Assembly (NCBI RefSeq): GCF_000190435.1 | Contig: NC_015152.1 | Span: 1,432,458-1,496,457, forward strand | Length of the DNA: 64,000 nt | Direction of reading: 5' to 3' | Source of the DNA: Sphaerochaeta globosa str. Buddy | GTDB taxonomy: Bacteria; Spirochaetota; Spirochaetia; Sphaerochaetales; Sphaerochaetaceae | Notes under the pieces: generated by a model | Seen by the model: the letters and a program-made list of their open reading frames with translations, nothing else | Database searches by the model: none | What the model was told of the DNA's origin: nothing | In this document: positions 7,364 through 46,283 of the stretch, one piece after another | How positions within the stretch are numbered: the first letter of the stretch is position 1 | How the letters are laid out: each line of letters starts with the position of its first letter | Made by a program: the position numbers and the translations under genes

Positions 7364-9865
7364 TTATTCGACCAGCTTCAGCAATGCTCCATACACCTTG
7401 TCAACACGCTTGGCCAGCTGCTTCTGTCCAGCTCCATCCAAGCTTTCGGCGAGTTGCAGCAACGTGAACAATGAAGTGTCCAAGGCATCAAAACAGTCTT
7501 CGACTCCCGTAAAACGATAATTGCCATTTCCGCTCTCTTCCAAAGCAACAAAATTCAAGTGGTTACGGTCCTTCTTGTTCTTCGTGAAAGCGAGCAGCCA
7601 CATCAAATTGTCCACTAAGATATCTGCGTCCTCAAGGGTATAGATACCCGATGGGGGATTGTCCAGAATGCCTTGCTCGATCTTCAGTTTTCCGTACAAT
7701 TCCAGAATTGAGAAGAACTTGTCGCCGTAATGGATGTAGAATCCGTTGTGCATGAGGGCTGCGGGGAAATTCTTTGGCCGCTTCGGAGCTTTCTCGTTTG
7801 CCTGGACTAGATAGCCGAGATCCTCGAGAGGAATGATGGCCACCAGCTTCTGCTTTTTCTTTCCCATGACCAGAGTAGGGTAGGTCCGCTTGTAAATGGT
7901 GATGGTTGCCTTTCCCTTCTCCTCGACGCGTCCCTTTTTCTCCTCCCGTTCTTCCTTCTTTGAAGGTTTTTCTCCCTTGGCAAGGGCCGAAAGCCTGGGA
8001 TAGAGCTCCACTGAGATATCATCAAGCCAAGCTTTCTCCAACGGACTGACACTGCGGGCATAGAGACGGCTTGTTTGCACGATCTCCCCCGCAATAATGA
8101 ATTGGGGAAGGGTTTTAAAATAGGCACTTCCGGGGTGTATGAATACCTGGTCGGCTGTCAAGCTCTTGTACATATTGCCTTTCGCCTTGATGCAGACATA
8201 CTGCATGAGACCGCTGGCGATGCAGCACAGGTATTCGCGAACCGTACCCCCGCTGGAAATCGGGAAGCCGATGTCAGTGCAAATCTCACCCAACTGTTCA
8301 TTGACGTGGACGATCTCCTGCATTCCCTGGAAATCGAGATAGTTACGCTTGCAGAACTTCTGTTTGGCTTCCTTGCCGACATTTGCCGTATACTGGCGAT
8401 AGAGGTTGAGGTAGGAGACAAAATCCCCATATTCGGAGGTATTGAAGCGCTTGTGGGCTGCTCGGCTGAGTTCCTCCTCCCCGGGGATCATCAAAAACGG
8501 ATTTTTGGTGGAAAGGAAGGAGACAGCAATCAACACTTCCTCCAATACATCGGGGTGGTTCATCATCGCCTCGACTATCACCCGTGAATGACGGGGAAGC
8601 AAGGGGAATCGACACATCAGGGACCCGATGGAGGTGAGCCTGCGGTATTCATCGATTGCACCGATGAAACGCAGTGTATCCTCGGCACTGGTAATCGCAC
8701 TGTGCTTGGGGCGGGTGATGAAAGGAAAGTGCTCATAGTCATAGATGGAAAGATCACTCATCCTCAATACGACTTCGCTCAGATCGGTTCTCAGTATCTC
8801 CTCGGTTCCGTAGGGCAAACGGCTCTGATAGTCTTCCTCACCGTAGAGGCGGTAACATACTCCCGGACTCGTTCGTCCCGCCCGTCCCTTGCGTTGTTCA
8901 CAACTGGAACGGCTGGTGGGCAACGGTACAAGCGAAGAGGTGAAATCCTTTTGGTTGTAGAAGTTGATTTTTGCTATGCCGCAATCGATGACCGTGGAAA
9001 TGCCGTCGATGGTTACCGACGTCTCGGCTATGTTTGTTGCAACGACGACCTTGGTTTTGCCGACGCCTGTTTCATTGAAAACAGACTCCTGCTCCTCCTT
9101 GCTCAACCGTCCGAAGAGCGGGTAGATTTCCAGCTGGTGGTCAGTGTCAGCCATATACAAGGCGTTGACGCACGTGGTGATGTCAAATTCCCCGCTCATG
9201 AAAACCAAGAGATCACCGGAACGGCGTTTTGCCTCTGACATGACAATCGAGGTAATGGCTTGTATCTGATAGTCGAGCGTTTCCCGCTCCAACGGCTTAT
9301 AGATGACTTGGACGGGATAGATGCGGGCATCGATACTGACAATCGGTGCATTGTCGAAGAACTCACTGAAAATTTTGGTATTTATCGTGGCGCTGGAGAT
9401 GATGACCTTGAAGTCATGTCGTTGCACCATGACTTCCTTCAGAAGTCCCAGGATGAAATCAATGTTCAGCGAGCGTTCATGTGCCTCATCGACCAGAATG
9501 ACTGAGTAGGAGCGAAGCAATGGGTCGGCTTTCAACTCCATGAGCAGAATGCCGTCGGTCATGACCTTGATGCGGGTATTGGGAGTGGTCGTATCTTCAA
9601 AACGCATTTTGTAGCCGACGAAACTGTCGTCCTTGCCCACCTGGTTTTTGATGAACTCACTGACGCTGAGCGTCGCAATGCGTCTGGGTTGGGTGATACC
9701 AACCTGTAATTGGTCCGCGTACCCAGCCTCGTGGAGGATCAGGGGGATTTGTGTAGTCTTTCCGCTTCCGGTGGGACTTTCGACAATGATGACTTGGTTT
9801 TTTGCAAGTCCATCAAGAATTTCCTGTCGATGTAGATACACCGGCAAATGTTTCATGTCTTTCAA
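7364..9865 (-). CDS. hrpA: DEAH-box ATP-dependent helicase HrpA/HrpB-like
   Basis: 833 residues. Motif I PTGSGKTT (31-38), DEAH (126-129), the SAT motif in ISSATINTK and motif VI QRKGRAGRTSPG are all intact, followed by HA2 and OB-like regions. It is shorter than the about 1300-residue E. coli HrpA. A Lys/Glu-rich low-complexity insert (about 637-660) and a basic segment interrupt the C-terminal part. Such enzymes unwind RNA and in E. coli and Borrelia act on mRNA or stalled ribosomes; the role here is inferred. The start is a TTG at 9865, 1 base after the hisS stop and 6 bases after AGGA; an in-frame ATG lies 9 bases further in (9856). Cotranscribed with hisS. Confidence 0.88.
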   Translation of the reverse strand: MKDMKHLPVYLHRQEILDGLAKNQVIIVESPTGSGKTTQIPLILHEAGYADQLQVGITQPRRIATLSVSEFIKNQVGKDDSFVGYKMRFEDTTTPNTRIKVMTDGILLMELKADPLLRSYSVILVDEAHERSLNIDFILGLLKEVMVQRHDFKVIISSATINTKIFSEFFDNAPIVSIDARIYPVQVIYKPLERETLDYQIQAITSIVMSEAKRRSGDLLVFMSGEFDITTCVNALYMADTDHQLEIYPLFGRLSKEEQESVFNETGVGKTKVVVATNIAETSVTIDGISTVIDCGIAKINFYNQKDFTSSLVPLPTSRSSCEQRKGRAGRTSPGVCYRLYGEEDYQSRLPYGTEEILRTDLSEVVLRMSDLSIYDYEHFPFITRPKHSAITSAEDTLRFIGAIDEYRRLTSIGSLMCRFPLLPRHSRVIVEAMMNHPDVLEEVLIAVSFLSTKNPFLMIPGEEELSRAAHKRFNTSEYGDFVSYLNLYRQYTANVGKEAKQKFCKRNYLDFQGMQEIVHVNEQLGEICTDIGFPISSGGTVREYLCCIASGLMQYVCIKAKGNMYKSLTADQVFIHPGSAYFKTLPQFIIAGEIVQTSRLYARSVSPLEKAWLDDISVELYPRLSALAKGEKPSKKEEREEKKGRVEEKGKATITIYKRTYPTLVMGKKKQKLVAIIPLEDLGYLVQANEKAPKRPKNFPAALMHNGFYIHYGDKFFSILELYGKLKIEQGILDNPPSGIYTLEDADILVDNLMWLLAFTKNKKDRNHLNFVALEESGNGNYRFTGVEDCFDALDTSLFTLLQLAESLDGAGQKQLAKRVDKVYGALLKLVE

Positions 9866-9866
9866 A

Positions 9867-11201
9867 TTAATTCCTTTGTAGTATGGATAGGGCCTCTTCT
9901 AGTGTCAAAGAAGGATAGTTTTCCCGGCTCCCCAGGTTTTTCAGGGTGAACCGATTTTCTTCTTCCTCTTCCTTGCTTGCAAGAATGGCATAGGTGATGG
10001 CATTGTTTTCCGCCCACTTGTACTGGGCTGCCAACTTTTTGTCTGCGAGATAGACACAGACTCTCAAACCGGTTTTCCTCAGTGCTCTCGCGATGGTGTC
10101 ATAGTAAGCGAACGATGTCATATCTGTGTTAAGAATGGCGACATCGGCAGAGCTGGTGGACGCTACGATGGGACTCTTGAGCTCTTCAAGGGCGGCAAGC
10201 AAACGGTCCAGTCCAATGGAGGATCCAACTCCAGGTAAGTTCTCCTTGGTGTAGAGGCTTGCCAAGTCATTGTATCGTCCTCCGCTGCAGACCGATCCGA
10301 AATTGGGTAAATCAGTAAGGAAGGTCTCATAGACAATACCCGTATAGTAGTCGAGTCCGCGAGTTATGGAAGGGTCGAAAACAAAGTGGCTTTCAATTCC
10401 CGCATTTTTCAGATAGTAGTAAATGGTTTGCATCCGTTTGGTGTGAACTTCTTCATTACCTGCAAGCACGCTCAGCCGGTTGAGTGTGGTAAGGAAACTC
10501 TCGTTCTCATCTTCCTTGTGGATATAGCTGAGGATTTGTTCAGCTTTTTCGCTGCTCGTGGTTATTTCAGCAAGTTGGGAAGCTACCTCTTGTTTTCCGA
10601 TTTTTCTGAGCTTATCCACCGTTCTGAGTATTTCCGTACTTTTGTCCAAAACCCCGAGGTGGGACAAAAATGCATTGAATAGGCCCCGGTGCGCGATGCA
10701 GAACTGATAATCCTCGATACCAATGACAGAGAAGGAGCTATTCATCATAGAGAGTATTTCGAAATCAGCCTCGGCATTATCGACACCGACAATGTCAAAG
10801 TCGCACTGCGTAAACTCCCGGAACCTTCCTTTCTGTGGGTTCTCTCCACGCCAAACCTTATCTATATGAAAACGCTTGAAGGGGAGGGCAAGCTCACTCT
10901 GATGTTGGGCGAGAAAGCGGGCGAAGGGGACGGTAAGGTCAAAGCGAAGGGCAACCTCGCGCTCTCCATTATCCTTGAAATGAAAAATCTGTTTATCGGT
11001 CTCTCCACCACCTTTGCCAAGGAGCACCTCTGTGTATTCAAGGACGGGAGTATCGATAGGGACAAAACCATAGGAGGAAAAGTGGGTTTCCAATTTGCTG
11101 ATGATTGCTTTCTTGGGGATTTCCATGGCCGGCAAAAAGTCGCGGAACCCTTTGAGAACTCTAGGTTCTATGATGCTTCTTGCCTTTGTTTTGTCACTCA
11201 T
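9867..11201 (-). CDS. hisS: Histidyl-tRNA synthetase
   Basis: 444 residues, class II synthetase. Motif 1 region (GFRDFLPAM...), motif 2 FHIDKVWRGENPQKGRFREFTQCDFDI, the histidine-specific segments GLDYYTGIVYE and SGGRYNDLA, motif 3 GSSIGLDRLLAAL, and a C-terminal anticodon-binding domain are visible. Charges tRNA-His in the cytoplasm. AGGAG sits 9 bases before the ATG at 11201. It is the first gene of a hisS-hrpA unit, divergent from pcnB; a possible promoter TTGCAG-16-TATACA lies far upstream on the same strand. Confidence 0.96.
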   Translation of the reverse strand: MSDKTKARSIIEPRVLKGFRDFLPAMEIPKKAIISKLETHFSSYGFVPIDTPVLEYTEVLLGKGGGETDKQIFHFKDNGEREVALRFDLTVPFARFLAQHQSELALPFKRFHIDKVWRGENPQKGRFREFTQCDFDIVGVDNAEADFEILSMMNSSFSVIGIEDYQFCIAHRGLFNAFLSHLGVLDKSTEILRTVDKLRKIGKQEVASQLAEITTSSEKAEQILSYIHKEDENESFLTTLNRLSVLAGNEEVHTKRMQTIYYYLKNAGIESHFVFDPSITRGLDYYTGIVYETFLTDLPNFGSVCSGGRYNDLASLYTKENLPGVGSSIGLDRLLAALEELKSPIVASTSSADVAILNTDMTSFAYYDTIARALRKTGLRVCVYLADKKLAAQYKWAENNAITYAILASKEEEEENRFTLKNLGSRENYPSLTLEEALSILQRN

Positions 11202-11319
11202 TGATTCATGCTCCTGTTGTGTTTTTAGAGTGGATGGTGTACAAAGAGTGTATAACGAATCGCTTGTTCACTGCAATACGCGGTTCTTTCCACACCATAC
11301 AACTTCATTTGAGAGCGAT

Positions 11320-12588
11320 ATGCTGATACGATACAAACAAGACGAACTAGGAAAGACCCTGCCTGTTGCCAACATCTACACCCAATCGGAACATAAGATT
11401 CCGGCCCACTTGCTTGACAAGGACGCTTTATGGGCAATTAAGAAGCTGCAAGCCAGCGGTGCTGAAGCCTACCTGGTAGGGGGCGCCGTTCGGGATATGA
11501 TGTTGGGAACCATCCCCAAGGATTTCGATATTGCCACCAGTGCATCTCCGCGCCAAATCCAGAGATTATTCTGGAATGCCAGAATCATAGGAAAGCGCTT
11601 CAAGCTGGTGCACCTCGTGTTCAAGGACAAAGTCCTGGAGGTCTCAACCTTCCGTAGCGGAGAGGAAGCGATGGATGGGAACAACAATGTGTTTGGTTCC
11701 ATCGATCAGGATGCAAAGCGCCGAGATTTCTCCATCAACAGTTTTTATTATGACCCTTCCACCGGACAATTGCTTGATTTCAACCATGCCATGGAGGATT
11801 TCAAGAAAAAGAAGATCAGTTCCATCATAGACTTGGACGAGTCCTTCAAGGAGGACCCGGTACGAATGGTGCGGGCTATCAAATATTCCGTTTCCACCGG
11901 GTTCTCGCTGCGTTGGAGCGTAAAAATGGCCATCCGCAAGTATTCCAACGAATTGTCACGTGTATCGACCAGTCGGTTAACTGAGGAAGTGAACAAGATT
12001 TTGGCAAGCGGTCACAGTTGCGAAATCTTCAATGAGCTGAAACGGTATAAGCTTCTCGTCTTTATGCTGCCTGCCTTCTCCATCTACAGCAGTTATCCCC
12101 AGGTCCAATCAAGCCTCAAGGAACTTGACAAGCAAGTACTGCTTGCCAAGCAGGGAAAGGGGAGTGAGGTGTTGTTGGCTGATATGCTCAAGGCTTTAGT
12201 GGATCCCTTGATTGTCTTCACCGATGAAGCTTTGACCATCGACCAGCGTTTCAAAGAGACCTTCAGGCAGATCAAGGTGCTCATCAGCCCCATGACGCCT
12301 TCCAATTATGACATTGAACTGGCGAGCGAACGCCTGTTGTGCGAGCGTGGATTCAAGACTCCCAGAAACTGTGTCCGAGTACAGCGTCCCGCCAATCGGA
12401 TTCCTGGTCGCAGACCTCCTCTTGCTACCGCCCAGCGTAAAGCAAGGCCTGAAGTATCGGCTGAAGGTGCAAAGAAACGGAGAACCAGAAACCGGGGGCC
12501 CAAGAAGAGCACGGGATCTTCAGCGAATTCTCAAGCACTGAATGAACAGAGCGTTGCTCAGACCAGTGCCGAGGTGCATGATCTTTAA
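11320..12588 (+). CDS. pcnB: Poly(A) polymerase / CCA-adding nucleotidyltransferase family
   Basis: 422 residues. Nucleotidyltransferase head YLVGGAVRDMMLGTIPKDFDIATSA with the metal-binding DxD, then RRDFSINSFYYD and EDPVRMVRAIKYS, as in PcnB. The C-terminus is strongly basic (RRPPLATAQRKARP..., KKRRTRNRGPKK), which matches the RNA-binding tail of PcnB more than a tRNA CCA-adding enzyme. It probably adds 3' A-tails to RNA to promote decay; a tRNA nucleotidyltransferase role cannot be excluded from sequence. The ATG at 11320 follows GAGAG; longer upstream starts would run through the hisS leader. Its stop overlaps the next, convergent gene by 4 bases. Confidence 0.87.
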   Translation: MLIRYKQDELGKTLPVANIYTQSEHKIPAHLLDKDALWAIKKLQASGAEAYLVGGAVRDMMLGTIPKDFDIATSASPRQIQRLFWNARIIGKRFKLVHLVFKDKVLEVSTFRSGEEAMDGNNNVFGSIDQDAKRRDFSINSFYYDPSTGQLLDFNHAMEDFKKKKISSIIDLDESFKEDPVRMVRAIKYSVSTGFSLRWSVKMAIRKYSNELSRVSTSRLTEEVNKILASGHSCEIFNELKRYKLLVFMLPAFSIYSSYPQVQSSLKELDKQVLLAKQGKGSEVLLADMLKALVDPLIVFTDEALTIDQRFKETFRQIKVLISPMTPSNYDIELASERLLCERGFKTPRNCVRVQRPANRIPGRRPPLATAQRKARPEVSAEGAKKRRTRNRGPKKSTGSSANSQALNEQSVAQTSAEVHDL

Positions 12589-13451
12589 CCCCATTCCTCG
12601 ATTTCGATATTGACACTGGAGACAAAAATACTGCCGTACTTCTCTAAGCTGTCGGCGATATATTCCTGTAGTTCTCCCAGTGTAGTCGAGATTTGGTGTT
12701 GCATGGGGACTCTGAGTTTGACCGTAAGTGCATAGCCTTCAGCTTTGATCTGAACCTGTACCCGCTTTACCTTGATTTGGGAATCAAACTCATCCAGACA
12801 ATGGGCAACCATTTGCGTCAGGGCCGCTTCGCTGACCGTCACTTTACTGTATTTTGAAAATTCAGGACGTACAATGGTTTTCTCAAAGCTGACATTTCTC
12901 CGCTTGAAGGGAACCCTGTTTCCTTTCTTATTGAGAAATACCCGCATGGAATCGTAGACTATTTGAGGATAATTCCGGGTAATCTCAATGGAAGGGACAG
13001 GAATGACGTGCTTGCCTTCCGAGTAGCGGATACGCATCGCTGTCTCAATCTGTTCCTTGGTGGCAATATCTTCAATTCGAAATAGTTTCTCCGGTTGGGG
13101 GAGGTTGAGACGAGAAGCAATTTTATACACCATCTTCTCACTGGTTCCGATGATTAATATCTTGTGGTATTTCTCTTTAGTTAATGCTTCCCTGACTTGT
13201 TTCTGATGATCCAAATCATCGAAAACAGCCGTTCGCACCGCAGAAAGGACGTTTTCCTCACGTTTGGCTGATTTACCCGCAAGAATACGATCCCCTCGTA
13301 TAAGAAGACCGTCATCTATGATTATGTCTATATGATATTTCTGGGCAACCAGCTTGGAACGAAAGCTTTTGCCGGTTCCGCTCTTTCCGACCAGCGCATA
13401 TACCTTAATTCCCTTCAGTTTCCAGAAGGCATACTTAAAAACTCGATTCAT
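12585..13451 (-). CDS. P-loop ATPase with C-terminal Asp23/Gls24-like region
   Basis: 288 residues, function unknown. A Walker A motif GKSGTGKS is at about 22-29. The middle contains IIIDDGLLIRGDRILAGKSAKRE and LIIGTSEKMVYKIASRLNLP, which look like a small nucleotide-dependent kinase or regulator core. The last 90 residues (VSEAALTQMVAHCLDEFDSQIKVKRV... to VNIEIEEW) have the alternating pattern of Asp23/Gls24 envelope-stress proteins; this is my reading, not a search result. The ATG at 13451 is preferred because a perfect TATAAT (13459-13464) overlaps the in-frame ATG at 13460 and ends 7 bases before 13451. The upstream region now carries the ISL3 element. Confidence 0.7.
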   Translation of the reverse strand: MNRVFKYAFWKLKGIKVYALVGKSGTGKSFRSKLVAQKYHIDIIIDDGLLIRGDRILAGKSAKREENVLSAVRTAVFDDLDHQKQVREALTKEKYHKILIIGTSEKMVYKIASRLNLPQPEKLFRIEDIATKEQIETAMRIRYSEGKHVIPVPSIEITRNYPQIVYDSMRVFLNKKGNRVPFKRRNVSFEKTIVRPEFSKYSKVTVSEAALTQMVAHCLDEFDSQIKVKRVQVQIKAEGYALTVKLRVPMQHQISTTLGELQEYIADSLEKYGSIFVSSVNIEIEEWG

Positions 13452-13458
13452 GGTTTTC

Positions 13459-13464
13459 ATTATA
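13459..13464 (-). promoter_or_regulatory. Predicted -10 box of the P-loop/Asp23-like gene
   Basis: Perfect TATAAT on the minus strand, 7 bases before the ATG at 13451. No good -35 box at 16-18 bases (best TTCTAT), so the call is tentative. Confidence 0.3.
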
Positions 13465-13473
13465 CCGAAATTC

Positions 13474-13502
13474 TTGTACAATAGAACTGTATTTGCTAAA
13501 AT
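13474..13502 (+). promoter_or_regulatory. Probable former rnf operon promoter, now cut off by the IS
   Basis: TTGTAC (13474-13479), 17 bases, TAAAAT (13497-13502). Removing the IS and one target repeat places this -10 box about 42 bases before rnfC, a normal leader length. The TAAAAT is the first part of the 8-base target duplication, so the element inserted at the -10 box. Transcription from it would now run into the IS, antisense to the transposase. Confidence 0.45.
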
Positions 13503-13504
13503 TC
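13497..13504 (+). repeat. Left target-site duplication of the ISL3 element
   Basis: TAAAATTC directly before the left inverted repeat; the identical 8 bases follow the right end at 14927-14934. Eight-base duplications are typical of ISL3. Confidence 0.9.
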
Positions 13505-13534
13505 GGCCTTTCGCTGTTTATAGTGGGTAGCTCT
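13505..13534 (+). repeat. ISL3 left inverted repeat
   Basis: Begins GGCCTTTCGCTGTTT; pairs with 14897-14926. Its inner end overlaps the transposase stop codon region. Confidence 0.8.
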
Positions 13535-14837
13535 ACATGATTGGCTGCAGGGGAAGGGACAATTCTCCACAGACGAAGTAGATCATATTCATGAAGTTCC
13601 TCATGTTCCTGAAGCCTCTCGCACGGCTCTTGATGATGCTTATCTTCGAGTTGAACCCCTCCAGGATTGCATTGGTCCTCAGGGTCTGGAAGTAGTTGAG
13701 AATCTCCACCGCATTCCTGGTCAGGCACTGTGCAAACTTGCGGATTTCCATGACCGCCGAGTTGGCGAATCTGATGGCCAGCCGCTCAAAGTCAGACACC
13801 ATGTCCTCGTCATAGGCCTTGTGGGTCTCATAGAAATCCTGCAGCTCAAGACGGCAGCTGTAGGCCTGGACCGTATCCAGATATTCGACCTGGAGCAGTT
13901 GGCCGAGCCGCTCCCGCTGCCTGTCGGTGAGGTTGTCGGGGTTCTTCAGCCAGATGTACCGCGTCTCTTTCAGGTCCTTTGTCTTTGCGGCGTTCTTGCT
14001 GCGCATTTCCCGTTTCCTGGTATTGTCCACCGCATCCGAACAATTCTTGACCACATGGAACTTGTCCACGGTGACGACGGCCTCGGGAAAGCTCTCCCCC
14101 AGGACGCTGCGGTAGCCGTGGATCATGTCGCTGGTGGCAACCTTCACCTGCCCGGGTTTTCCGTCCTTCTCCTTGAAACGCTCAAGAAAACGTTTCACGG
14201 CATCCTTGTCTTTTCCTTCCGTCACAAAGAGTACCCTCGCTTTCCCCGCCTGCCTGCGCCTTCCAGCCTCATCGGTGACGACATCGGGATGGGAGAGGAA
14301 TACCGTGATGTAGTTGTGACCCTTGTGGCTGTACTCGTCCACCCCTATCGCACTGACATCCGAGAAGTCCTGGTCCTTGAGGGCCTCCCCCACATGGTAA
14401 TCGATCAGGCGCCACAGCTTGGTGTCGTGCTCCCCGATCTCACGGGCAACCGTCCTGACCGGCATATGCTTCACCAGGGTGAGTATCACCCCCTCCATCA
14501 TCAAGGTGAAGCCGCTGCCGCTTCTTGCCCAGGGCACCGGGACGGTCCTCACCTTGCCGTCGGGCGTGATGATCCTGGGAACCCTCGCCGTGATGTAGCA
14601 GCGATACTGGAAGAAATTGAGATGCCTCCAGGTTCTCTCCCGTGTGTCGTGGACCTTGCAGCCCTGGTCGAAGCCTGGACACGGGAAACTCGACCCTTCC
14701 TCAAAATCGATCCGTATGTGGAGTTCCAACAGCGTTGGCTGCTTCTCGGACGGAACCATCTCCAGTGAAGTGATGCGCCAAGGTTCCTCAAGGCCCAATC
14801 CGAGGCTGAAAAGTTTCTGAATATGCGGATCGATCAT
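13533..14837 (-). CDS. ISL3-family transposase
   Basis: 434 residues. The N-terminal region has the Cys-containing zinc-binding segment CPGFDQGC (53-60) and a helix-turn-helix region near MPVRTVAREIGEHDTKLWR. The DDE catalytic residues fit ISL3: D167 in IGVDEYSHKGHNYITV, D237 in VATSDMIHGYRSV, and E in NAILEGFNSKISIIKSRARG near the C-terminus. The ATG at 14837 is chosen for AAGGAG 8 bases upstream; an in-frame TTG lies 30 bases earlier. The frame is intact, so the element may be active. It is transcribed away from rnfC. Confidence 0.95.
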   Translation of the reverse strand: MIDPHIQKLFSLGLGLEEPWRITSLEMVPSEKQPTLLELHIRIDFEEGSSFPCPGFDQGCKVHDTRERTWRHLNFFQYRCYITARVPRIITPDGKVRTVPVPWARSGSGFTLMMEGVILTLVKHMPVRTVAREIGEHDTKLWRLIDYHVGEALKDQDFSDVSAIGVDEYSHKGHNYITVFLSHPDVVTDEAGRRRQAGKARVLFVTEGKDKDAVKRFLERFKEKDGKPGQVKVATSDMIHGYRSVLGESFPEAVVTVDKFHVVKNCSDAVDNTRKREMRSKNAAKTKDLKETRYIWLKNPDNLTDRQRERLGQLLQVEYLDTVQAYSCRLELQDFYETHKAYDEDMVSDFERLAIRFANSAVMEIRKFAQCLTRNAVEILNYFQTLRTNAILEGFNSKISIIKSRARGFRNMRNFMNMIYFVCGELSLPLQPIM

Positions 14838-14896
14838 CTGCTTTGCTCCTTGCTCTAAACATAGCAAATTACCCTCTATTCATGAATACCCAATTG

Positions 14897-14926
14897 AGTC
14901 TTACCCACCAGAAACAGCGAATAACC
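14897..14926 (-). repeat. ISL3 right inverted repeat
   Basis: Read on the minus strand it begins GGTTATTCGCTGTTT, matching the left end at most of 30 positions. Confidence 0.8.
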
Positions 14927-14934
14927 TAAAATTC
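14927..14934 (+). repeat. Right target-site duplication of the ISL3 element
   Basis: TAAAATTC, identical to 13497-13504. It also recreates a TAAAAT box 43 bases before rnfC, but with no recognisable -35 box at 16-18 bases inside the IS end. Confidence 0.9.
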
Positions 14935-14975
14935 TCAATCTGTTCTGATAATCATCTACATAAGGAGCGTTATGC

Positions 14976-16286
14976 ATGCAGAAAGTACCTACGTTCAGCA
15001 AGGGTGGTGTGCATCCTGATGACAAGAAGGTATATAGCCGTTCCCAGTCGATTGAAAGACTACCAATGCCATCGGAGTTGATCGTCGCACTGTCACAGCA
15101 CCTTGGTGCACCGGCGAAAGCCATCAAGGCCAAGGGCGATACCGTACTCAAGGGAGAAAAGATAGGCGAAAGTGCAGGGTTCATCAGCTCTGATGTCCAC
15201 TCACCTGTCAGCGGCGTTATAAAGGAAATTAGACGGGTAACCCTCGCCAACAGCGTCCAATGCGATGCGTTTGTGATAGTTCCCGATGCCGAGCAACCGG
15301 ACCAACAAAGCGAGAAGCTTGATTGGAAGGAGCAAAGCAGTGCTGATTTATTGGCGAAAATCAAGGATTTGGGTATTGTCGGTATGGGTGGAGCCACCTT
15401 CCCGGCACATGTGAAGTTCTCCGTTCCCCGGGACAAGAAGGTTGAGGCCTTTGTCGTGAACGGGGTAGAGTGCGAACCCTATTTGACCGCCGACTACCGC
15501 ATCATGCTCGAGAAGGGTGAAGAGGCTCTTGAGGGAGCCATGATCTGTGCCAAGATTACCGGGGCTCAGAGAGTTATCATCGGCATTGAGTTGAACAAGC
15601 CTGACTGTATCGCTCACCTGAATGAAATCATCAAGCAGAAGGGTTATCCGATTGAAATCATGGGCTTGAAGATTAAATATCCCCAAGGTGATGAGAAGCA
15701 GCTGCTCAAAGCTACGATACATCGGGAAATCCCCTCAGGCAAGCTTCCCCTTGATGTCGGTGCAGTTGTAGCGAACATCGGAACCTGTAATGCCATCTAT
15801 GAAGCAATTGTCCTTGGGAAAAGTCTCTACGAACGGGTCATCAGTGTGACCGGTGAGTGTATTGCCAACCCCAAGAATATCCTTGCCCCTGTTGGGACCA
15901 AGGTAAGCGACTTGCTCGCATTTTGCGGCGGCTTCAAGAGCGAACCTGAGAAATTGGTCAGCGGTGGTCCCATGATGGGATTCTCCTTCTTTGATACGGA
16001 AACTCCTATTACCAAAGGAAGCAGCGGACTGCTTGCATTACCTCCTCAGAAAAAGGTGCGTACAACGGCCTGTCTGAACTGTGGTCGTTGTGTTGCCGCC
16101 TGCCCGATTGGACTCATGCCGGCTAAACTGTATCGCCTGATAAACAATGGTCATTACGAAGAGGCGATGCAGACCAGTCTTATGGATTGCAAGGAGTGCG
16201 GTTGTTGCTCCTTCGTGTGCCCTGCACATCTTCCGCTTGTGCATACCATGAAGACCGGAAAGAAACTGGGGAGAAAGAAGAAATGA
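14976..16286 (+). CDS. rnfC: Rnf electron-transport complex subunit RnfC
   Basis: 436 residues. N-terminal lipoyl-like region (HSPVSGVIKEI), flavin/NADH-binding segments GMGGATFPAHVKFSVP and VNGVECEPYLTADYRIM, then two ferredoxin-type motifs CLNCGRCVAACP and CKECGCCSFVCP near the C-terminus. RnfC is the soluble NADH-oxidising or -reducing subunit of the ferredoxin:NAD+ oxidoreductase that pumps Na+ or H+. AAGGAG lies 8 bases before the ATG. First gene of rnfCDGEAB; its stop overlaps rnfD by 4 bases. The ISL3 element sits 49 bases upstream and may change the operon's promoter. Confidence 0.96.
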   Translation: MQKVPTFSKGGVHPDDKKVYSRSQSIERLPMPSELIVALSQHLGAPAKAIKAKGDTVLKGEKIGESAGFISSDVHSPVSGVIKEIRRVTLANSVQCDAFVIVPDAEQPDQQSEKLDWKEQSSADLLAKIKDLGIVGMGGATFPAHVKFSVPRDKKVEAFVVNGVECEPYLTADYRIMLEKGEEALEGAMICAKITGAQRVIIGIELNKPDCIAHLNEIIKQKGYPIEIMGLKIKYPQGDEKQLLKATIHREIPSGKLPLDVGAVVANIGTCNAIYEAIVLGKSLYERVISVTGECIANPKNILAPVGTKVSDLLAFCGGFKSEPEKLVSGGPMMGFSFFDTETPITKGSSGLLALPPQKKVRTTACLNCGRCVAACPIGLMPAKLYRLINNGHYEEAMQTSLMDCKECGCCSFVCPAHLPLVHTMKTGKKLGRKKK

Positions 16287-17377
16287 ATAAACCTACTTTG
16301 ACGGTTTCCTCTTCACCACACCTACATGCGAAGACGGATACCGCATCCATTATGTGGATTGTCTCACTTGCCTTGGCCCCTGCCACGTTGTGGGGTGTGT
16401 ATGTGTTCGGATTGCGTTCTGCACTCGTGCTGGCGGTTGCTATAGCGAGTTCTTTGCTCTGTGAATTCTTGTTGGGAAAAGTCAGCAAAGAATCGACGTT
16501 GTGGGATGGCTCTGCATTCCTTACAGGCTTGCTGGTTGGTTTGAACATGAGCCCGTCGGTTCCTTTGTTCATTCCCTTTTTGGCAAGTGCCTTCGCAATC
16601 TTTGTTGCAAAGTGGGTGTTTGGAGGTTTGGGTGCAAACTGGGCCAACCCGGCTCTTGCCGGCCGTGTCTTTGTTTTCTTTTCCTTCACGACACCGATGT
16701 CCAGTTATGTGACTCCCAGAACCCTTGCCTCTGCAATGCCTGATGCACTTGCTTCGGCAACCCCTCTGGGGTTCGCAAAGACTGCTATTGCTTCAGGTAC
16801 CCTGGGCATGGACGCAAATGCCTTGCTGCAATCTGCCTCCTATCCAGTTACCTCCTTTGCTCAGTCGCTTTCCTCTCTGACCGGGCTCAGTGCATACAGC
16901 ATTGACTCCTTCTTGGGTAACGTGGCCGGTTGTATCGGTGAGGTGAGTGCCTTGGCTTTGCTTATCGGTGGAATTTTCCTGTTGGCAACCAAGATTATTA
17001 CCTGGCATATTCCGGTAACCTATCTGTTGAGTGTCGGCGTATTCTCTTGGATTTTTGGAGGCATTCCTGCTGCAAGAGGAGCCTTCAGTGGCGCCTTCTT
17101 CCCTTCGATGTTCTCCGGCGGCCTGATGCTTGGTGCTTTGTTTATGGCAACCGACTATGTCACCAGCCCGATAACGCACAAGGCTCAGATTGTCTATGGA
17201 CTTGGGTGTGGTTTCTTTACCTTCCTGTTCAGATATTTCGGTAGTATGCCTGAAGCGGTCTCGGTTTCCATCCTTTTGATGAACATCCTGACGCCCACCA
17301 TCGACCGATATATAATTCCTCGCAAGTTCGGTGATACCAAGGAGTTGAGGAAGAAGCAGAAGGAGGAAAAAGTATGA
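16283..17377 (+). CDS. rnfD: Rnf complex subunit RnfD
   Basis: 364-residue membrane protein with about nine hydrophobic segments. LASATPLGF places Thr160 where RnfD/NqrB carry the covalently bound FMN (consensus S-G-A-T; here S-A-T, Gly changed to Ser). WANPALAGRVFVFFSF and VTYLLSVGVFSWIFGG are family segments. It is part of the Rnf ion-pump membrane core. The start is the ATG inside the ATGA overlap with rnfC; upstream extensions would read rnfC in another frame. Confidence 0.95.
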   Translation: MNKPTLTVSSSPHLHAKTDTASIMWIVSLALAPATLWGVYVFGLRSALVLAVAIASSLLCEFLLGKVSKESTLWDGSAFLTGLLVGLNMSPSVPLFIPFLASAFAIFVAKWVFGGLGANWANPALAGRVFVFFSFTTPMSSYVTPRTLASAMPDALASATPLGFAKTAIASGTLGMDANALLQSASYPVTSFAQSLSSLTGLSAYSIDSFLGNVAGCIGEVSALALLIGGIFLLATKIITWHIPVTYLLSVGVFSWIFGGIPAARGAFSGAFFPSMFSGGLMLGALFMATDYVTSPITHKAQIVYGLGCGFFTFLFRYFGSMPEAVSVSILLMNILTPTIDRYIIPRKFGDTKELRKKQKEEKV

Positions 17378-17931
17378 CAAAGAATATAAAGTATGCACTG
17401 ATACTTCTTTCCATCTGCGCGGTCAGTGCATTTGCTCTTGCTCTTACCAACTCGATTACCTCTCCGGTGATCGCCCAAATAGATGCCGATAATCGACTCA
17501 AGGCTCTTGAAGCGGTGAGTGCAGGGTATGTAATTGGAGACCAGAAAGAGGTCTCTGATAATGCGTATGTAACCTACACCATTGAGCTGCAAGATAATTC
17601 CAATGTCGCCGGATATATCTTGGGCCTAAAAACCGCAGGGTATGGTGGAGCAATGACGTTGGTAGCTTCCTATACTACCCAAGGTGAAATGCTCTTTGCT
17701 CAGCTTTTGGCCCATGGAGAGACCCCGGGTCTTGGAAAGAAGGCAGAGAATGAGGGCTATATGGACAAATTCAAAGGAACCGGTGCCGCAAAACCGGTGC
17801 CAACCAGCAAGACCATGCTCAGCGATAGCGATGCCCAGGCTGTCGGCGGTTCTTCTGTAACCTTCACAGCGATAGCCAAGGCGATCAGTGGCGGCAGTGA
17901 GTATGTGAAAGGTCTTGGAGGTGCAAAGTGA
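17374..17931 (+). CDS. rnfG: Rnf complex subunit RnfG
   Basis: 185 residues: one N-terminal membrane anchor (about 7-26), then an extracytoplasmic FMN-binding domain with GYGGAMTLVASY and HGETPGLG. The usual flavinylation motif (S/T-G-A-T) is replaced by V-G-G-S-S-V-T (157-163). Ser161 or Thr163 might accept FMN, but this is not the standard ApbE target. RnfG passes electrons between RnfC/RnfD flavins. It overlaps rnfD by 4 bases and rnfE by 4 bases. No apbE gene is seen in the window. Confidence 0.93.
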   Translation: MTKNIKYALILLSICAVSAFALALTNSITSPVIAQIDADNRLKALEAVSAGYVIGDQKEVSDNAYVTYTIELQDNSNVAGYILGLKTAGYGGAMTLVASYTTQGEMLFAQLLAHGETPGLGKKAENEGYMDKFKGTGAAKPVPTSKTMLSDSDAQAVGGSSVTFTAIAKAISGGSEYVKGLGGAK

Positions 17932-18557
17932 AAGCTAACGTAAAAGAGTTCACCAAAGGAATTTTCAAAGAGAATCCGGTGTTTGTCATTGTTCTTGGAT
18001 TGTGCCCGACCTTGGGCGTATCCACACAGGTGTCAAATGCCATCGGCATGTCGGCAGGTGTTATGTTTGTACTGCTGTTCAGCAATATTTTCATCTCAGC
18101 CTTACGCAAAGTGATTCCTGCAAGCATCCATATTCCTGCCTACATTGTCATCATTGCAAGTTTGGTTACCATCATCGAGATGGTGATGCATGCCTTTGTC
18201 CCTGCAGTGTACAGTGCTCTTGGTGTCTATCTTCCCCTGATTGTTGTTAACTGCATCATTCTTGGAAGGGCTGAGGCTTTTGCAAGCAGGAATACTGTTC
18301 TCGATTCCATCCTGGATGCATTGGGAATGTCGATCGGGTTTGCCTTGGGTATTACCTTGATCGCTCTCATTCGTGAACTGTTCGGCTCAGGGACCATTAC
18401 CTTGTTTCCTGTTGGAACCTTCGGTGGTGTTATCAACATTCCCTGGTTCTATGACAATCCGATCCGTGTTCTGTCACTCGCCCCTGGTGCATTATTGCTT
18501 ATGGGTTTCTTGAAGGCTTTCTTCGACTGGAACACCTCACGAAAGAAGGATAGGTAA
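17928..18557 (+). CDS. rnfE: Rnf complex subunit RnfE
   Basis: 209-residue membrane protein with six hydrophobic segments. ENPVFVIVLGLCPTLGVSTQ and VYLPLIVVNCIILGRAEAFAS are RnfE/NqrD signatures, including the conserved cysteines near the membrane-embedded [2Fe-2S] site shared with RnfA. GTG start at 17928 within the GTGA overlap with rnfG. Homologous to RnfA and inserted in opposite topology. Confidence 0.95.
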   Translation: MKANVKEFTKGIFKENPVFVIVLGLCPTLGVSTQVSNAIGMSAGVMFVLLFSNIFISALRKVIPASIHIPAYIVIIASLVTIIEMVMHAFVPAVYSALGVYLPLIVVNCIILGRAEAFASRNTVLDSILDALGMSIGFALGITLIALIRELFGSGTITLFPVGTFGGVINIPWFYDNPIRVLSLAPGALLLMGFLKAFFDWNTSRKKDR

Positions 18558-18558
18558 G

Positions 18559-19152
18559 ATGAGCTACATTGCAATACTACTCACATTCATTTTTATCAAT
18601 AACTTCATTCTTGTGCAGTTCTTGGGCTTGTGTCCGTTCATCGGTGTCTCCAAGAACAGCGAGAATGCCATCGGTATGGGTGCTTCGGTTACCTTCGTGA
18701 CCACGGTAGCCTCAGTGGTTACTTGGGCTATTTACTACTTTTTATTGGTGCCTTTCAATTTGCAGTACCTGCAGACGTTGACCTTCATTTTAGTCATCGC
18801 CAGTTTGGTACAGCTGCTTGAGATGGTGATACAAAAGATCAGCCCTGCTTTGTATAAGGCACTGGGAATATATCTTCCTCTCATTACCACAAACTGTGCA
18901 GTGCTTGGTATCGCATTAATCAACATCTCCAATTCCTATAATGTGATGGAAGCCTTTACGGCAGGTCTGGCAGCAGGTCTTGGATTCACCCTTGCTATTG
19001 TGTTGATGAGCAATATTCGTGAACGTCTTGATCTACAACCGGTACGCAGAGCGTATCGCGGCATGCCTATTGCTTTCATCAGTGCAGGTTTGATGGCCTT
19101 GGCATTCATGGCCTTCGACAAGTCCTTGATCACCAACCTGCATCTCGTATAA
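18559..19152 (+). CDS. rnfA: Rnf complex subunit RnfA
   Basis: 197-residue membrane protein with six hydrophobic segments. NNFILVQFLGLCPFIGVSKN and LGIYLPLITTNCAVLGIALIN are the RnfA/NqrE signatures with the paired cysteines. It forms the pseudo-symmetric membrane core with RnfE. It begins 1 base after the rnfE stop, with AGGATAGGTAAG upstream serving as ribosome site. Confidence 0.95.
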   Translation: MSYIAILLTFIFINNFILVQFLGLCPFIGVSKNSENAIGMGASVTFVTTVASVVTWAIYYFLLVPFNLQYLQTLTFILVIASLVQLLEMVIQKISPALYKALGIYLPLITTNCAVLGIALINISNSYNVMEAFTAGLAAGLGFTLAIVLMSNIRERLDLQPVRRAYRGMPIAFISAGLMALAFMAFDKSLITNLHLV

Positions 19153-19162
19153 GGGGGGAGCT

Positions 19163-19963
19163 GTGAATATTCTCTTTGCAATTATTGTGGTAGCCGTCCT
19201 TGGCGGCATATTTGGATTCGGCCTCTCGTATGCGGAAAAGAAACTTGCAATCAAGAAGGATCCGAGAATACTCGCCCTTGAACCCCTTATGCCCGGTGCC
19301 AACTGTGGTGTCTGTGGGTATGCTGGATGCAATGCGTATGCGGCAGCGGTTGCTTTGGGCGAAGCCGAAATTGGCTTGTGCAGCCCCGGTGGTTCTTCCT
19401 TGGTGGCCAAAATGGCTGAAATCATGGGAACAAAGATTGAAGCCGGTGGCGATACTCGCCGTAAGGTTGCCCACGTCATGTGCAAGGGTAACACTGAATT
19501 TACGGTAAAGGATTACAACTACGAAGGACTTCTTGACTGTAATGCTGCGTCCTTGTTGTTTGCAGGAGATAATAACTGCAAGAGCGGATGCATGCATTTG
19601 GGCAGTTGTATAAAAGTTTGTCCTGTTGGGGCTATCTCCAAGGATAAGGATGGGTATATCATAGTTGATGAAAAACTTTGCATCAGCTGTGAGAAGTGCG
19701 TCGCAATCTGTCCGAATGGGGTCATGCAGATGATCTATGAGGATAGTGAATATGTAATCGACTGCAATAGTCATGAGCCGGGTGGAAAGGTTCGAAAACA
19801 ATGTACGGTTGGATGTATAGGATGTAAGATTTGTGAAACCAAGTATCCCGAATCCGGATGCAAAGTCGATCGATTCCTTTCTACCTTTGATCAGATGCTC
19901 CCGCATGGCCAAATAGAAGAGGCTGCCCAGGCGTGTCCGACCAAAATAATCATTAAGCGGTAA
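19163..19963 (+). CDS. rnfB: Rnf complex subunit RnfB, polyferredoxin
   Basis: 266 residues, GTG start after AAGGGGGGAG. One N-terminal membrane helix (about 3-23); an Fe-S domain with C48, C51, C56 and C73 (PGANCGVCGYAGCNAY); then ferredoxin motifs CMHLGSCIKVCP, CISCEKCVAICP and further Cys sets (CTVGCIGCKICETKYP). RnfB takes electrons from ferredoxin. It is the last Rnf subunit of the operon; the next gene begins 3 bases after its stop, so the two are probably cotranscribed. Confidence 0.94.
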   Translation: MNILFAIIVVAVLGGIFGFGLSYAEKKLAIKKDPRILALEPLMPGANCGVCGYAGCNAYAAAVALGEAEIGLCSPGGSSLVAKMAEIMGTKIEAGGDTRRKVAHVMCKGNTEFTVKDYNYEGLLDCNAASLLFAGDNNCKSGCMHLGSCIKVCPVGAISKDKDGYIIVDEKLCISCEKCVAICPNGVMQMIYEDSEYVIDCNSHEPGGKVRKQCTVGCIGCKICETKYPESGCKVDRFLSTFDQMLPHGQIEEAAQACPTKIIIKR

Positions 19964-19966
19964 GGG

Positions 19967-21868
19967 ATGAAAGTACTGATAGGTGCCTATAGTCAACTTA
20001 GCCAAGGTGTTCCAGTGCCCGCATTCGAGCGGGCACTTGCTACTGTATTCAAGCCTCTTCTTACACTTATGCACCATACAGAGGGTTCATCCCTGCAACT
20101 TTCACTGGGTATACCGGTGCTGGAGTGGCTGGAGTTGACTCAACAGCCGGTTAACCTTTTGCTTGCCGATCTTGCCAGAAGCGGCAAGGTTGAGCTTTTG
20201 ACCGGCTCCTATCACCAAACCATTCTCAGCCTGCTCTCCCCGAAGGACCGTTCCAACCAGATTGAACTTACTACAACCTATCTGCGTAAGCGATATGGTC
20301 AGCGTTCAAAAACCTTGTTCTGTTATGCACAGGCATTCAATCCTCAGTATATCAATACGATGAATTTGTGTTGTGTTGACAACTTGGTTATTTCTTCCTA
20401 CGACTGCGATAAGCCGAAGCAAGAGTTTTCCGAGCCTTTTTCCATGCAGGAGATGGGCAAGTCCATTTCAATTTTTCCAACCAGTACGGCGATCAATGCC
20501 CTTGTATATACTTATGCACGCAAAGAAATCAGTTTTGGAAATCTATTGGACCAAATACAGTCTGTTTTTGATAGGAAACCCGCTTTTCTTATGGCAATGA
20601 TCAATCTGGACCAACTAATGCAGGGTGGCATCAATGAGGAACAGACGACTGAGTTGTTCCGATTGCTGATGAACTACGGGCCTGAAACTATCGAAGAAGT
20701 GCATACCTTGGAAGCTATTCCGAAGAAAGGGTATTTACAGGCAGGGTGGTATGGCTTTGATTCAATAAAAACCAATCTTTGCTGCATCAATGACCTGTTT
20801 GTGAAAGATGAAAGCTTTGCCTATCTGTATGGCAGGTATACCTCGCTGGTTGAGTGCGCCCGCACCTACAAGAAAGACAAAGATGTTCGAAAGCGCCTTG
20901 AGCAATTGATTCAGAAAGTCTCTACAGGAACGGTGTATTTGTGTGATGCAAATGCATCCATGCTTCGAAGTTCAGTAAGAAAGTTATTCTGGCGGTATAT
21001 CAGCGAAGCTGACAGCATCCTCTCATCATTGAAGGATTATTCCTATCCGGTCGTTACTGATTTTGACCATGATGAACTTGATGAGTATTTGGTTATCGGC
21101 AAGTACTTGAGTTGTGTGGTTGATTCCAAAGGCGGAAGTCTTGCTGAATTGACGTATCTGCCTTCACTGTATAACTATGGGGATGGTCTATCTCCTTTGC
21201 AAGGGTTCGGCAGCAGCAAGAATAATCAGCATCCTTCCATCGCTGGAAAGAAACAACGCCTGTTCAGTGATGTGTTTCTTTCCTCTGAGGCAGTATTGGA
21301 TGAATACTCGAAGGTACAGGAGCATCACTGTCTGGATATGAGTTCGACTGTATACAACCTTTGTGTTCTTGATCGCAGGAATACCGAATACCGTGCGGTG
21401 GCCTGTACCGGTCAATCAGATATCATCGGAGGGGAGTTGGAGATTTCCAAACATTTCAAGCTCCGACAGAATACTGTGTTGCTCGATGTCACCTTGTCCA
21501 ACCTGAGTGACCATCCTGTCAGCTTTTTGTATGGTTGTGAAATACCTCTCTCCATTGCATCCCTAAAAAGTCCGATTTCCTTCCTTCAGCTCGAAAATAA
21601 GAAGAATGTACAGTATGATGAAGCTGAGATTATCTTAAAGCAAGTGAAATCAATCCGGATGTTTGATGAACCAAACAGTACTTCCCTTACATTGGTTGCT
21701 GATACCCGCTTTACCTTACTCAAAGAAGACTATACTATTGAAATTGCCACCGTCCTCGGCGAGGAACAACTGTATCAACATACGTTGTTCATGACTTCTT
21801 GGCCCATCCAATTGGAGAGCGGAGCGGAGAAAAAAATTACCCTTGGACTCAGGGTGGAACGAAAATAA
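19967..21868 (+). CDS. GH57-family-like protein, catalytic residues apparently lost
   Basis: 633 residues. The layout resembles GH57 4-alpha-glucanotransferases: an N-terminal barrel region with LSLGIPVLEWL and LLTGSYHQTILSLLSPKDR, then DUF1925/DUF1926-like helical and beta regions ending LESGAEKKITLGLRVERK. However, three catalytic motifs look changed. The N-terminal HxHQP is replaced by the AYSQLSQG region. The nucleophile motif (E in ERVWQPE) reads AQAFNPQ (121-127). The acid motif (DDGEKFG) reads INLDQLM (212-218). It may be a non-catalytic glucan-binding or regulatory protein; family membership is by eye. It starts 3 bases after rnfB and probably belongs to the same transcript. Confidence 0.7.
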   Translation: MKVLIGAYSQLSQGVPVPAFERALATVFKPLLTLMHHTEGSSLQLSLGIPVLEWLELTQQPVNLLLADLARSGKVELLTGSYHQTILSLLSPKDRSNQIELTTTYLRKRYGQRSKTLFCYAQAFNPQYINTMNLCCVDNLVISSYDCDKPKQEFSEPFSMQEMGKSISIFPTSTAINALVYTYARKEISFGNLLDQIQSVFDRKPAFLMAMINLDQLMQGGINEEQTTELFRLLMNYGPETIEEVHTLEAIPKKGYLQAGWYGFDSIKTNLCCINDLFVKDESFAYLYGRYTSLVECARTYKKDKDVRKRLEQLIQKVSTGTVYLCDANASMLRSSVRKLFWRYISEADSILSSLKDYSYPVVTDFDHDELDEYLVIGKYLSCVVDSKGGSLAELTYLPSLYNYGDGLSPLQGFGSSKNNQHPSIAGKKQRLFSDVFLSSEAVLDEYSKVQEHHCLDMSSTVYNLCVLDRRNTEYRAVACTGQSDIIGGELEISKHFKLRQNTVLLDVTLSNLSDHPVSFLYGCEIPLSIASLKSPISFLQLENKKNVQYDEAEIILKQVKSIRMFDEPNSTSLTLVADTRFTLLKEDYTIEIATVLGEEQLYQHTLFMTSWPIQLESGAEKKITLGLRVERK

Positions 21869-21888
21869 CCATCTCAAGGAGTGAGCCC

Positions 21889-22993
21889 ATGTATTTCCAG
21901 AATAAATCTATGTTTGAAAGTGTAAAAGAAGAAGCCTATACCGTATGGAGGCGTCTTTGACCCGGATAAGATGCTCTCTGAAATCCAGAAACTGGAAACA
22001 AAAACACTAGAGGCAGGCTTTTGGGATGACCGAAAGGGTGCTGAACAACTGTTTGCACAACTCAATGGTCTCAAGGATTCCTACTATCCCTGGAAAGAGT
22101 TGATTGATTCTCTTGGTGATATGGCTGAGCTTATGGAAATCTATGCTGATGAACCGGATAACCCGGAGGAAGAGGCACAGATCGACGCCCAGATTACCCA
22201 ATTGAAAGAACAATACGGCCAACTTAAGCTGAAGACCCTGCTCGATGGCAAGTTTGACAAGAACGACTGTTTCTTGACCATTCATGCTGGAGCGGGAGGA
22301 AATGAAGCCAGTGACTGGGCCAATATGTTGATGCGCATGTACCTTAGGTATTGCGAGCGAAACGGATTCAAGAGCGAAGTCCTCGATCTGTTGGAGGACG
22401 AAGGTGGCATTAAGAGTGCCACTATCAGGGTCTCGGGTCCGTATAGTTTTGGGTATCTGAAGGGCGAGGCAGGCGTACACCGCCTTGTCCGAATTAGTCC
22501 TTTTGACTCGCAAAAGCGCCGACATACCTCATTTACCAGTGTCTATGCATCACCTGTCATCGATGACACCATTGAAATTGACTTGAAACCCGAGGATTAC
22601 CGCCTCGATACCTACCGGGCGGGCGGTGCCGGCGGCCAGCATGTCAATAAGACCGACAGTGCCGTACGTATCACCCACTATGAATCCGGTATTGTCGTTC
22701 AATGCCAGAATGAACGCAGTCAGGTTATGAACAAGGACGTTGCCTTCAAGATGCTTAAAAGCCGACTCTATGAGTATTATCGTGAGCTGAAGGAAAAAGA
22801 ACATCAGAAGGACGCTATTGAGAAGAAAGAAATTACGTGGGGAAGCCAGATACGCTCCTATGTGTTTCAGCCCTATACCATGGTCAAAGACCATAGGACA
22901 AGCGTGACCGTAGGTAACATCCAAGCAGTCATGGATGGGGAGATCGGGGATTTCATTGAAGGCTATCTCCAATGGGCCCAAAAGGAGGAGTAG
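21889..22993 (+). CDS. prfB: Peptide chain release factor 2, programmed +1 frameshift
   Basis: The coding sequence needs a +1 shift. The ATG at 21889 (AAGGAG 7 bases upstream) opens 23 codons ending in CTT at 21955-21957, followed by in-frame TGA (21958-21960). Skipping one T gives GAC at 21959 and continues to 22993, for about 367 residues. GGAGG at 21947-21951 lies 3 bases before CTT, the spacing of the E. coli RF2 site. The main frame carries the codon-recognition SPF (VRISPFDSQ) and the catalytic GGQ (AGGAGGQHVNKTDSAV). RF2 terminates at UGA and UAA, and low RF2 favours the shift, so the gene is autoregulated. Confidence 0.96.
21947..21961 (+). promoter_or_regulatory. prfB recoding site
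   Basis: GGAGG CGT CTT TGA C: internal Shine-Dalgarno, 3-base spacer, slippery CTT and the UGA read by RF2 itself. It matches the canonical RF2 frameshift cassette. Confidence 0.95.
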
Positions 22994-45929: not shown

Positions 45930-45939
45930 GCTTTTTTAC

Positions 45940-46274
45940 AAGGTAGGCGAGATGATCGCGGGCGGTCGAAAGACCGCTTGAGGAAAGTCCGGGCTCCATA
46001 GGACATGATGCCGGGTAACACCCGGGAGCGGCGACGCTATAGAGAGCACCACAGAAAATATACCGCCGATTATTCGGTAAGGGTGAAATGGTGGGGTAAG
46101 AGCCCACCGCACCACTGGTAACAGGGGTGGCAGGGTAAGCCTCGTCAGGAGCAAAACCAAGCAGCAGGTTGGGTTGTCCGCCTTGAGCCTGCGGGTCGGT
46201 TGCTACAGCGTCTTGGTAACAAGAAGCGTGGATAGATGATCATCCGATACAGAACCCGGCTTATTGCCTGCCTT
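45940..46274 (+). ncRNA. rnpB: RNase P RNA, bacterial type A
   Basis: All universal segments are present: GAGGAAAGTCCGGGCTCC (P4 5' half), ACAGAAAATATACCGCC, GGGTAAGAGCCCACCG and the 3' end ACAGAACCCGGCTTA. P1 is formed by AAGGTAGGC (45940-45948) with GCCTGCCTT (46266-46274), one G-T pair included. It cleaves tRNA 5' leaders. A run of eight T follows the 3' end and may terminate it. Confidence 0.97.
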
Positions 46275-46283
46275 GTTTTTTTT
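46275..46283 (+). terminator. T run after RNase P RNA
   Basis: GTTTTTTTT directly after the P1 helix; P1 could act as the terminator stem. The next gene's ATG is only 22 bases downstream. Confidence 0.5.

Follow-up and report, generated by a model that had tools for sequence, protein, structure and literature searches.

What becomes of an operon for an energy-converting complex when a transposable element lands directly in front of it? We addressed this question for the rnfCDGEAB operon of Sphaerochaeta globosa str. Buddy, within a stretch of 64,000 nucleotides of its genome (positions 1,432,458 to 1,496,457 of NC_015152.1; hereafter, the window), in which an insertion sequence (IS) lies between rnfC and a divergently transcribed P-loop gene (Table 1). 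The original prediction for this locus, made from the sequence alone, held that the element had struck the −10 box of the only good rnf promoter, so that rnf might be silenced or driven from the element itself. Our analysis points instead to an insertion just downstream of an intact promoter.

Table 1. Features around the insertion, in window coordinates
Feature	Position	Strand	Details
P-loop gene (divergent)	12585..13460	-	intact; weak Asp23-like C-terminal match; adjoins rnf in most relatives
P1, conserved candidate rnf promoter	13454..13482	+	−35 TTTTCA (13454-13459), 17 nt, −10 TACAAT (13477-13482); intact
P-loop gene promoter (predicted)	13459..13486	-	−35 TTCTAT (13486-13481), 16 nt, −10 TATAAT (13464-13459); intact; shares DNA with P1
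P2, promoter of the original prediction	13474..13502	+	TTGTAC (13474-13479), 17 nt, TAAAAT (13497-13502), TGn; intact left of the IS
Target duplication, left copy	13497..13504	.	8 bp, TAAAATTC; exact match to right copy
ISL3-family IS	13505..14926	-	1422 bp; inverted ends GGCCTTTCGCTGTTTATAGTGGGTA / GGTTATTCGCTGTTTCTGGTGGGTA
ISL3 transposase	13533..14867	-	444 aa read from TTG; ATG at 14837
Target duplication, right copy	14927..14934	.	8 bp, TAAAATTC; exact match to left copy
rnfC Shine-Dalgarno	14962..14967	+	AAGGAG; undisturbed; invariant in 21/21 distinct rows
rnfC	14976..16286	+	intact; TIGR01945 506.6 bits; dN/dS ~0.04 vs relatives
rnfD	16277..17377	+	intact; PF03116 2e-105
rnfG	17374..17931	+	intact; PF04205; TIGR01947 76.6 bits, below cut-off 102
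rnfE	17928..18557	+	intact; PF02508 2.9e-63; E/A assignment by operon order
rnfA	18559..19152	+	intact; PF02508 2.8e-62; E/A assignment by operon order
rnfB	19163..19963	+	intact; PF04060; TIGR01944 94.4 bits, above cut-off

A recent ISL3 transposition upstream of rnfC

The element was originally described as an ISL3 insertion with an 8-bp duplication starting with TAAAAT, and its ends, its duplication and the family of its transposase all bear this out. The transposase matches PF01610 (1e-61) along with PF13542 and PF14690, as ISL3-type DDE transposases do, and scores 283.6 bits against NCBIfam NF033550, above the cut-off of 180. The terminal inverted repeats are imperfect and about 25 bp long, and 8 bp is the classical ISL3 duplication length according to the available portion of PMC7643977; in transposase type, ends and duplication we noted no difference from the family. 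The closest annotated plasmid-borne transposases, among the matches listed, are about 39-44% identical (Bifidobacterium longum 44.2%; ISTfe1-type 40.7%).

The genome, a single contig of 3,316,466 bases, contains the IS four times, including the copy linked to rnf. Two of the others match this copy exactly, and the remaining one departs from it at 2 of 1,422 positions. All four are flanked by exact 8-bp duplications, as is typical of the family, and each duplication is different (TAAAATTC at rnf, and CTTGAAAC, GTAATTAT and CTTTCATC). Near-identical copies that each carry their own exact duplication indicate recent activity of the element. One copy (L002, 1860283-1861704) has ORFs on both sides and appears to interrupt the reading frame of a large protein with repeats that is probably exposed at the surface. 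Another (L003, 287476-288897) lies between ORFs that, named by eye, are glycosyltransferase-like and acetyltransferase-like, the latter seemingly without its N-terminus. Three full-length copies of the same IS, at 96-97% identity, are also present in a genome from another genus of the same family (G084; L037), which suggests movement between genera.

We then asked about the state of this site in relatives, searching for RnfC in the S. globosa genome and in 59 relatives, one genome per species. A long RnfC match was found in 23 of 25 genomes of the genus; the remaining two are assemblies of 68% and 81% completeness. The region upstream of rnfC could be aligned in 22 of these 23, and none of the 22 carries the insert; two of them (L006 and L007) directly display an uninterrupted TTTGCTAAAATTCTCA, with flanks that match almost base for base. 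The same IS at this site in all relatives, which the original prediction had named, together with normal rnf expression, as counting against it, is not what the genus presents, and the uninterrupted site in all 22 aligned regions indicates that the insertion is recent and lineage-specific. Together, the separate duplications of the other copies and the empty site in relatives establish the IS at rnf as a real transposition and not a chance resemblance.

A conserved candidate promoter ends before the insertion

Candidate promoters were scored with a matrix of E. coli-like frequencies, which covers sigma-70-type sites only. As a control, it detected strong sites upstream of both tRNAs in the window (13.6 and 11.1) and missed rnpB (2.8). 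For this RNase P RNA (class A, 300.7 bits; 45939-46279), 2.8 was the best sigma-70-type score within 150 nt upstream, with no recognisable site.

The pair on which the original prediction was built, TTGTAC 17 nt before TAAAAT (P2), is indeed present and scores 9.7. The original prediction saw no other good promoter facing rnfC; a second pair, P1, whose −10 box overlaps the −35 box of P2, scores 9.5 and is far better conserved. P1 has a predicted transcription start near 13489, and a separate promoter scan also lists it as TTTTCA-17-TACAAT. A score of 9.5 is reached by 2.1% of the 120-nt pieces of the window (median 5.1) and lies at the 90th percentile when the bases of the native region (120 nt) are shuffled 1,000 times, so that neither P1 nor P2 is striking by score alone.

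Conservation separates the two. We compared 35 distinct short intergenic regions between the P-loop gene and rnfC, 17 from the genus and 18 from outside it. At the place of P1, and at the same offset, a score of at least 7.5 was found in 17/17 genus regions and 14/18 outside the genus, and a score of at least 9 in 17/17 and 13/18, respectively; outside the genus, the next-best 3-nt offset bin accounted for 5/18 regions. At the place of P2, only 7 of the 17 genus regions scored at least 7, and outside the genus a single region of the 18 scored at least 7.5 within one base. Across 21 distinct genus rows, five of the six −10 positions are invariant in P1, compared with none of six in P2. Between genera the hexamer at the P1 place varies yet stays −10-like (TACAAT, TATAAT, TAGAAT, TAAAAT, TATTAT, TAAGAT). 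In the genus rows a block of strong conservation extends up to about 13493, before the insertion at 13504, and conservation then drops until the Shine-Dalgarno sequence.

P1 thus joins a −35/−10 pair, at a spacing within the 16-18 nt of sigma-70-type promoters, to a conserved position. We conclude from the comparison that P1, rather than P2, is probably the rnf promoter and that the original assignment was probably wrong in detail; P2 may still provide an additional genuine start in S. globosa and the species nearest to it. The palindrome TTGTACAA was also considered as an operator, a reading that we rejected: since it is not kept in L021, L023, L026 and L027 (C at position 1; TATAAT in L021), a promoter box fits better. 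A promoter call made on a single sequence can take a −10 box for a −35 box, an error that comparison with relatives corrects.

P1 overlaps a predicted promoter of the P-loop gene

P1 and the predicted promoter of the P-loop gene face each other head-on, on opposite strands of about 30 bp of common DNA, with the −10 box of each lying over the −35 box of the other. The TATAAT of the P-loop promoter is invariant at 6/6 positions across the genus rows. Because the −10 box of P1 shares bases with the −35 box of this promoter, part of the conservation of P1 could stem from the P-loop gene, and these shared bases are the main weakness of the argument for P1. In sharing its DNA between opposite strands, the pair resembles bacterial bidirectional promoters (PMC10268837). 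The class defined in the available part of that paper has a shared −10 box and starts 7-25 bp apart, and the present pair, with predicted divergent starts about 37 bp apart, falls outside it.

For the P-loop gene the original prediction needs a correction: the gene keeps its −10 box, as stated, but the −35 box is retained as well, plus 18 bp of native sequence beyond it. The −10 box lies very near the possible start codons (ATG at 13460 and 13451), and judging by this placement transcription may start at the second ATG or right beside it, giving a leaderless mRNA. The encoded protein resembles PF00005 (1.6e-4) and PF03780 (7e-4) without reaching the curated cut-off of either, and has no NCBIfam match. 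Of 110 overlapping loci from Sphaerochaetaceae-type genomes, 89 have the gene and rnfC in divergent orientation, a pairing that suggests a link to Rnf or common regulation.

The two junctions of the element

The insertion point at 13504 is 22 bp past the end of the P1 −10 box and about 15 bp past the expected P1 start. With P1 complete before this point, the most likely location of the IS is the 5' leader of rnf, shortly after an unbroken promoter, and not the −10 box as originally proposed. Even P2 survives entire to the left of the element, its TAAAAT being regenerated by the duplication. Both promoters point into the IS, antisense to the transposase, which is encoded on the minus strand and, as had been recognised, is transcribed away from rnfC. 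The earlier description of a complete left-hand promoter directed into the IS holds, and its distance from rnf is about 1.43 kb.

At the right junction, the second TAAAAT has no usable −35 box, again as predicted: the best candidate, TACCCA at 19 nt, scores 4.5, which is less than the median 120-nt piece of the window attains (5.1). No outward sigma-70-type promoter was recognised at the right end of the IS in the matrix scan (best 4.5), and a hybrid or outward promoter for rnf, which the original prediction had allowed for, was rejected on these grounds. In the other three IS copies, good outward scores come from flanking DNA only (for example, 10.9 in L002).

These junctions bear directly on the proposal that the insertion hit the −10 box of a sole rnf promoter, TTGTAC-17-TAAAAT, leaving rnf silent or on a hybrid or outward IS promoter. 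The high score of P2 with its TGn extension, and its recurrence at a score of 7 in 7/17 distinct genus regions, speak for it. However, P2 is not the only candidate, its −10 box has no invariant position in the genus, it is matched (at least 7.5 within its offset bin) in 1/18 regions outside the genus, and the duplication leaves it whole on the left while the right junction scores only 4.5. We regard this proposal as rather unlikely.

Within the IS (13505-14926), no intrinsic terminator was recognised on either strand. A structured RNA in the leader was also sought, with no Rfam match in 8000-22000; across the whole window, Rfam models match just the RNase P RNA and a pair of tRNAs. We also considered whether the IS end might mask the ribosome-binding site of rnfC, and discarded this idea because the predicted fold at the Shine-Dalgarno sequence is unchanged by the IS.

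Probable consequences for rnf expression

Downstream of the element, rnfC, D, G, E, A and B run in the same direction, all intact and without stops (RnfG being identified by Pfam and gene order). The rnf genes have dN/dS values of 0.02-0.05 against two relatives (G005 and G013), indicating purifying selection, with some genes compared over part of their length. Codon changes in rnfC that are unique to this genome are mostly synonymous (66, against 4 that are not), and the same test for G005 gave 49 and 3. Decay of rnf was rejected on this evidence; a long-standing decay is ruled out, with dN/dS being blind to young silencing.

The reading that we favour, and consider likely from the sequence evidence, is that the rnfCDGEAB 5' leader was the recent target of an active ISL3-family element, which inserted some 15-22 bp past an intact P1 and probably left the operon with reduced, leaky expression rather than without a promoter. 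Transcription would still begin at the native promoter or promoters, but rnfC would be reached only after some 1.43 kb had been read. The RNA made over this stretch would be untranslated and antisense to the transposase, and its synthesis would run against transcription of the transposase gene. Rho, which is encoded in the genome, could add polarity to such a read-through transcript. Expression of rnf would then probably be lowered but leaky, sustained by read-through, and not silenced through promoter loss. The transposase and the P-loop gene are transcribed in the same direction, and transcripts of the former may extend into the latter.

The insertion might also have little effect, if rnf expression is kept normal by read-through or by a promoter of non-sigma-70 type that escaped recognition close to the right end. 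Intact rnf coding sequences and Shine-Dalgarno sequence, and the lack of a recognised intrinsic terminator in the IS, are compatible with this, as is a case in Enterococcus, where an ISL3-family element sitting between vanS and vanH but clear of the promoter was judged to have no part in the loss of expression (PMC11702846, in its available part). There, as at rnf, the IS stands outside the promoter, between regulatory DNA and the operon; the operon here encodes the energy-converting Rnf complex of a spirochaete. Against a negligible effect stand the leader lengthened by 1.43 kb of untranslated RNA, the opposing transcription and the presence of Rho, and we consider such an outcome unlikely.

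A further, unlikely reading is that the long RNA from the rnf promoter, antisense to the whole transposase mRNA, forms a self-limiting arrangement that ties transposition to the rnf promoter. Since the IS copies are identical or nearly so, antisense RNA from the rnf-linked copy could damp the transposase of all four. If this were true, one RNA would damp the transposase while carrying on into rnf.

Our search of the literature on rnf operons and insertion sequences, on read-through of ISL3 elements in leaders, and on Sphaerochaeta genomes with Rnf did not retrieve any account of this insertion. The event described here is ordinary IS biology, recent and cleanly documented, and it may plausibly affect an operon central to energy metabolism. 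As this is the only rnf operon of the genome, the insertion in its leader offers a natural experiment on the extent to which this group depends on Rnf.
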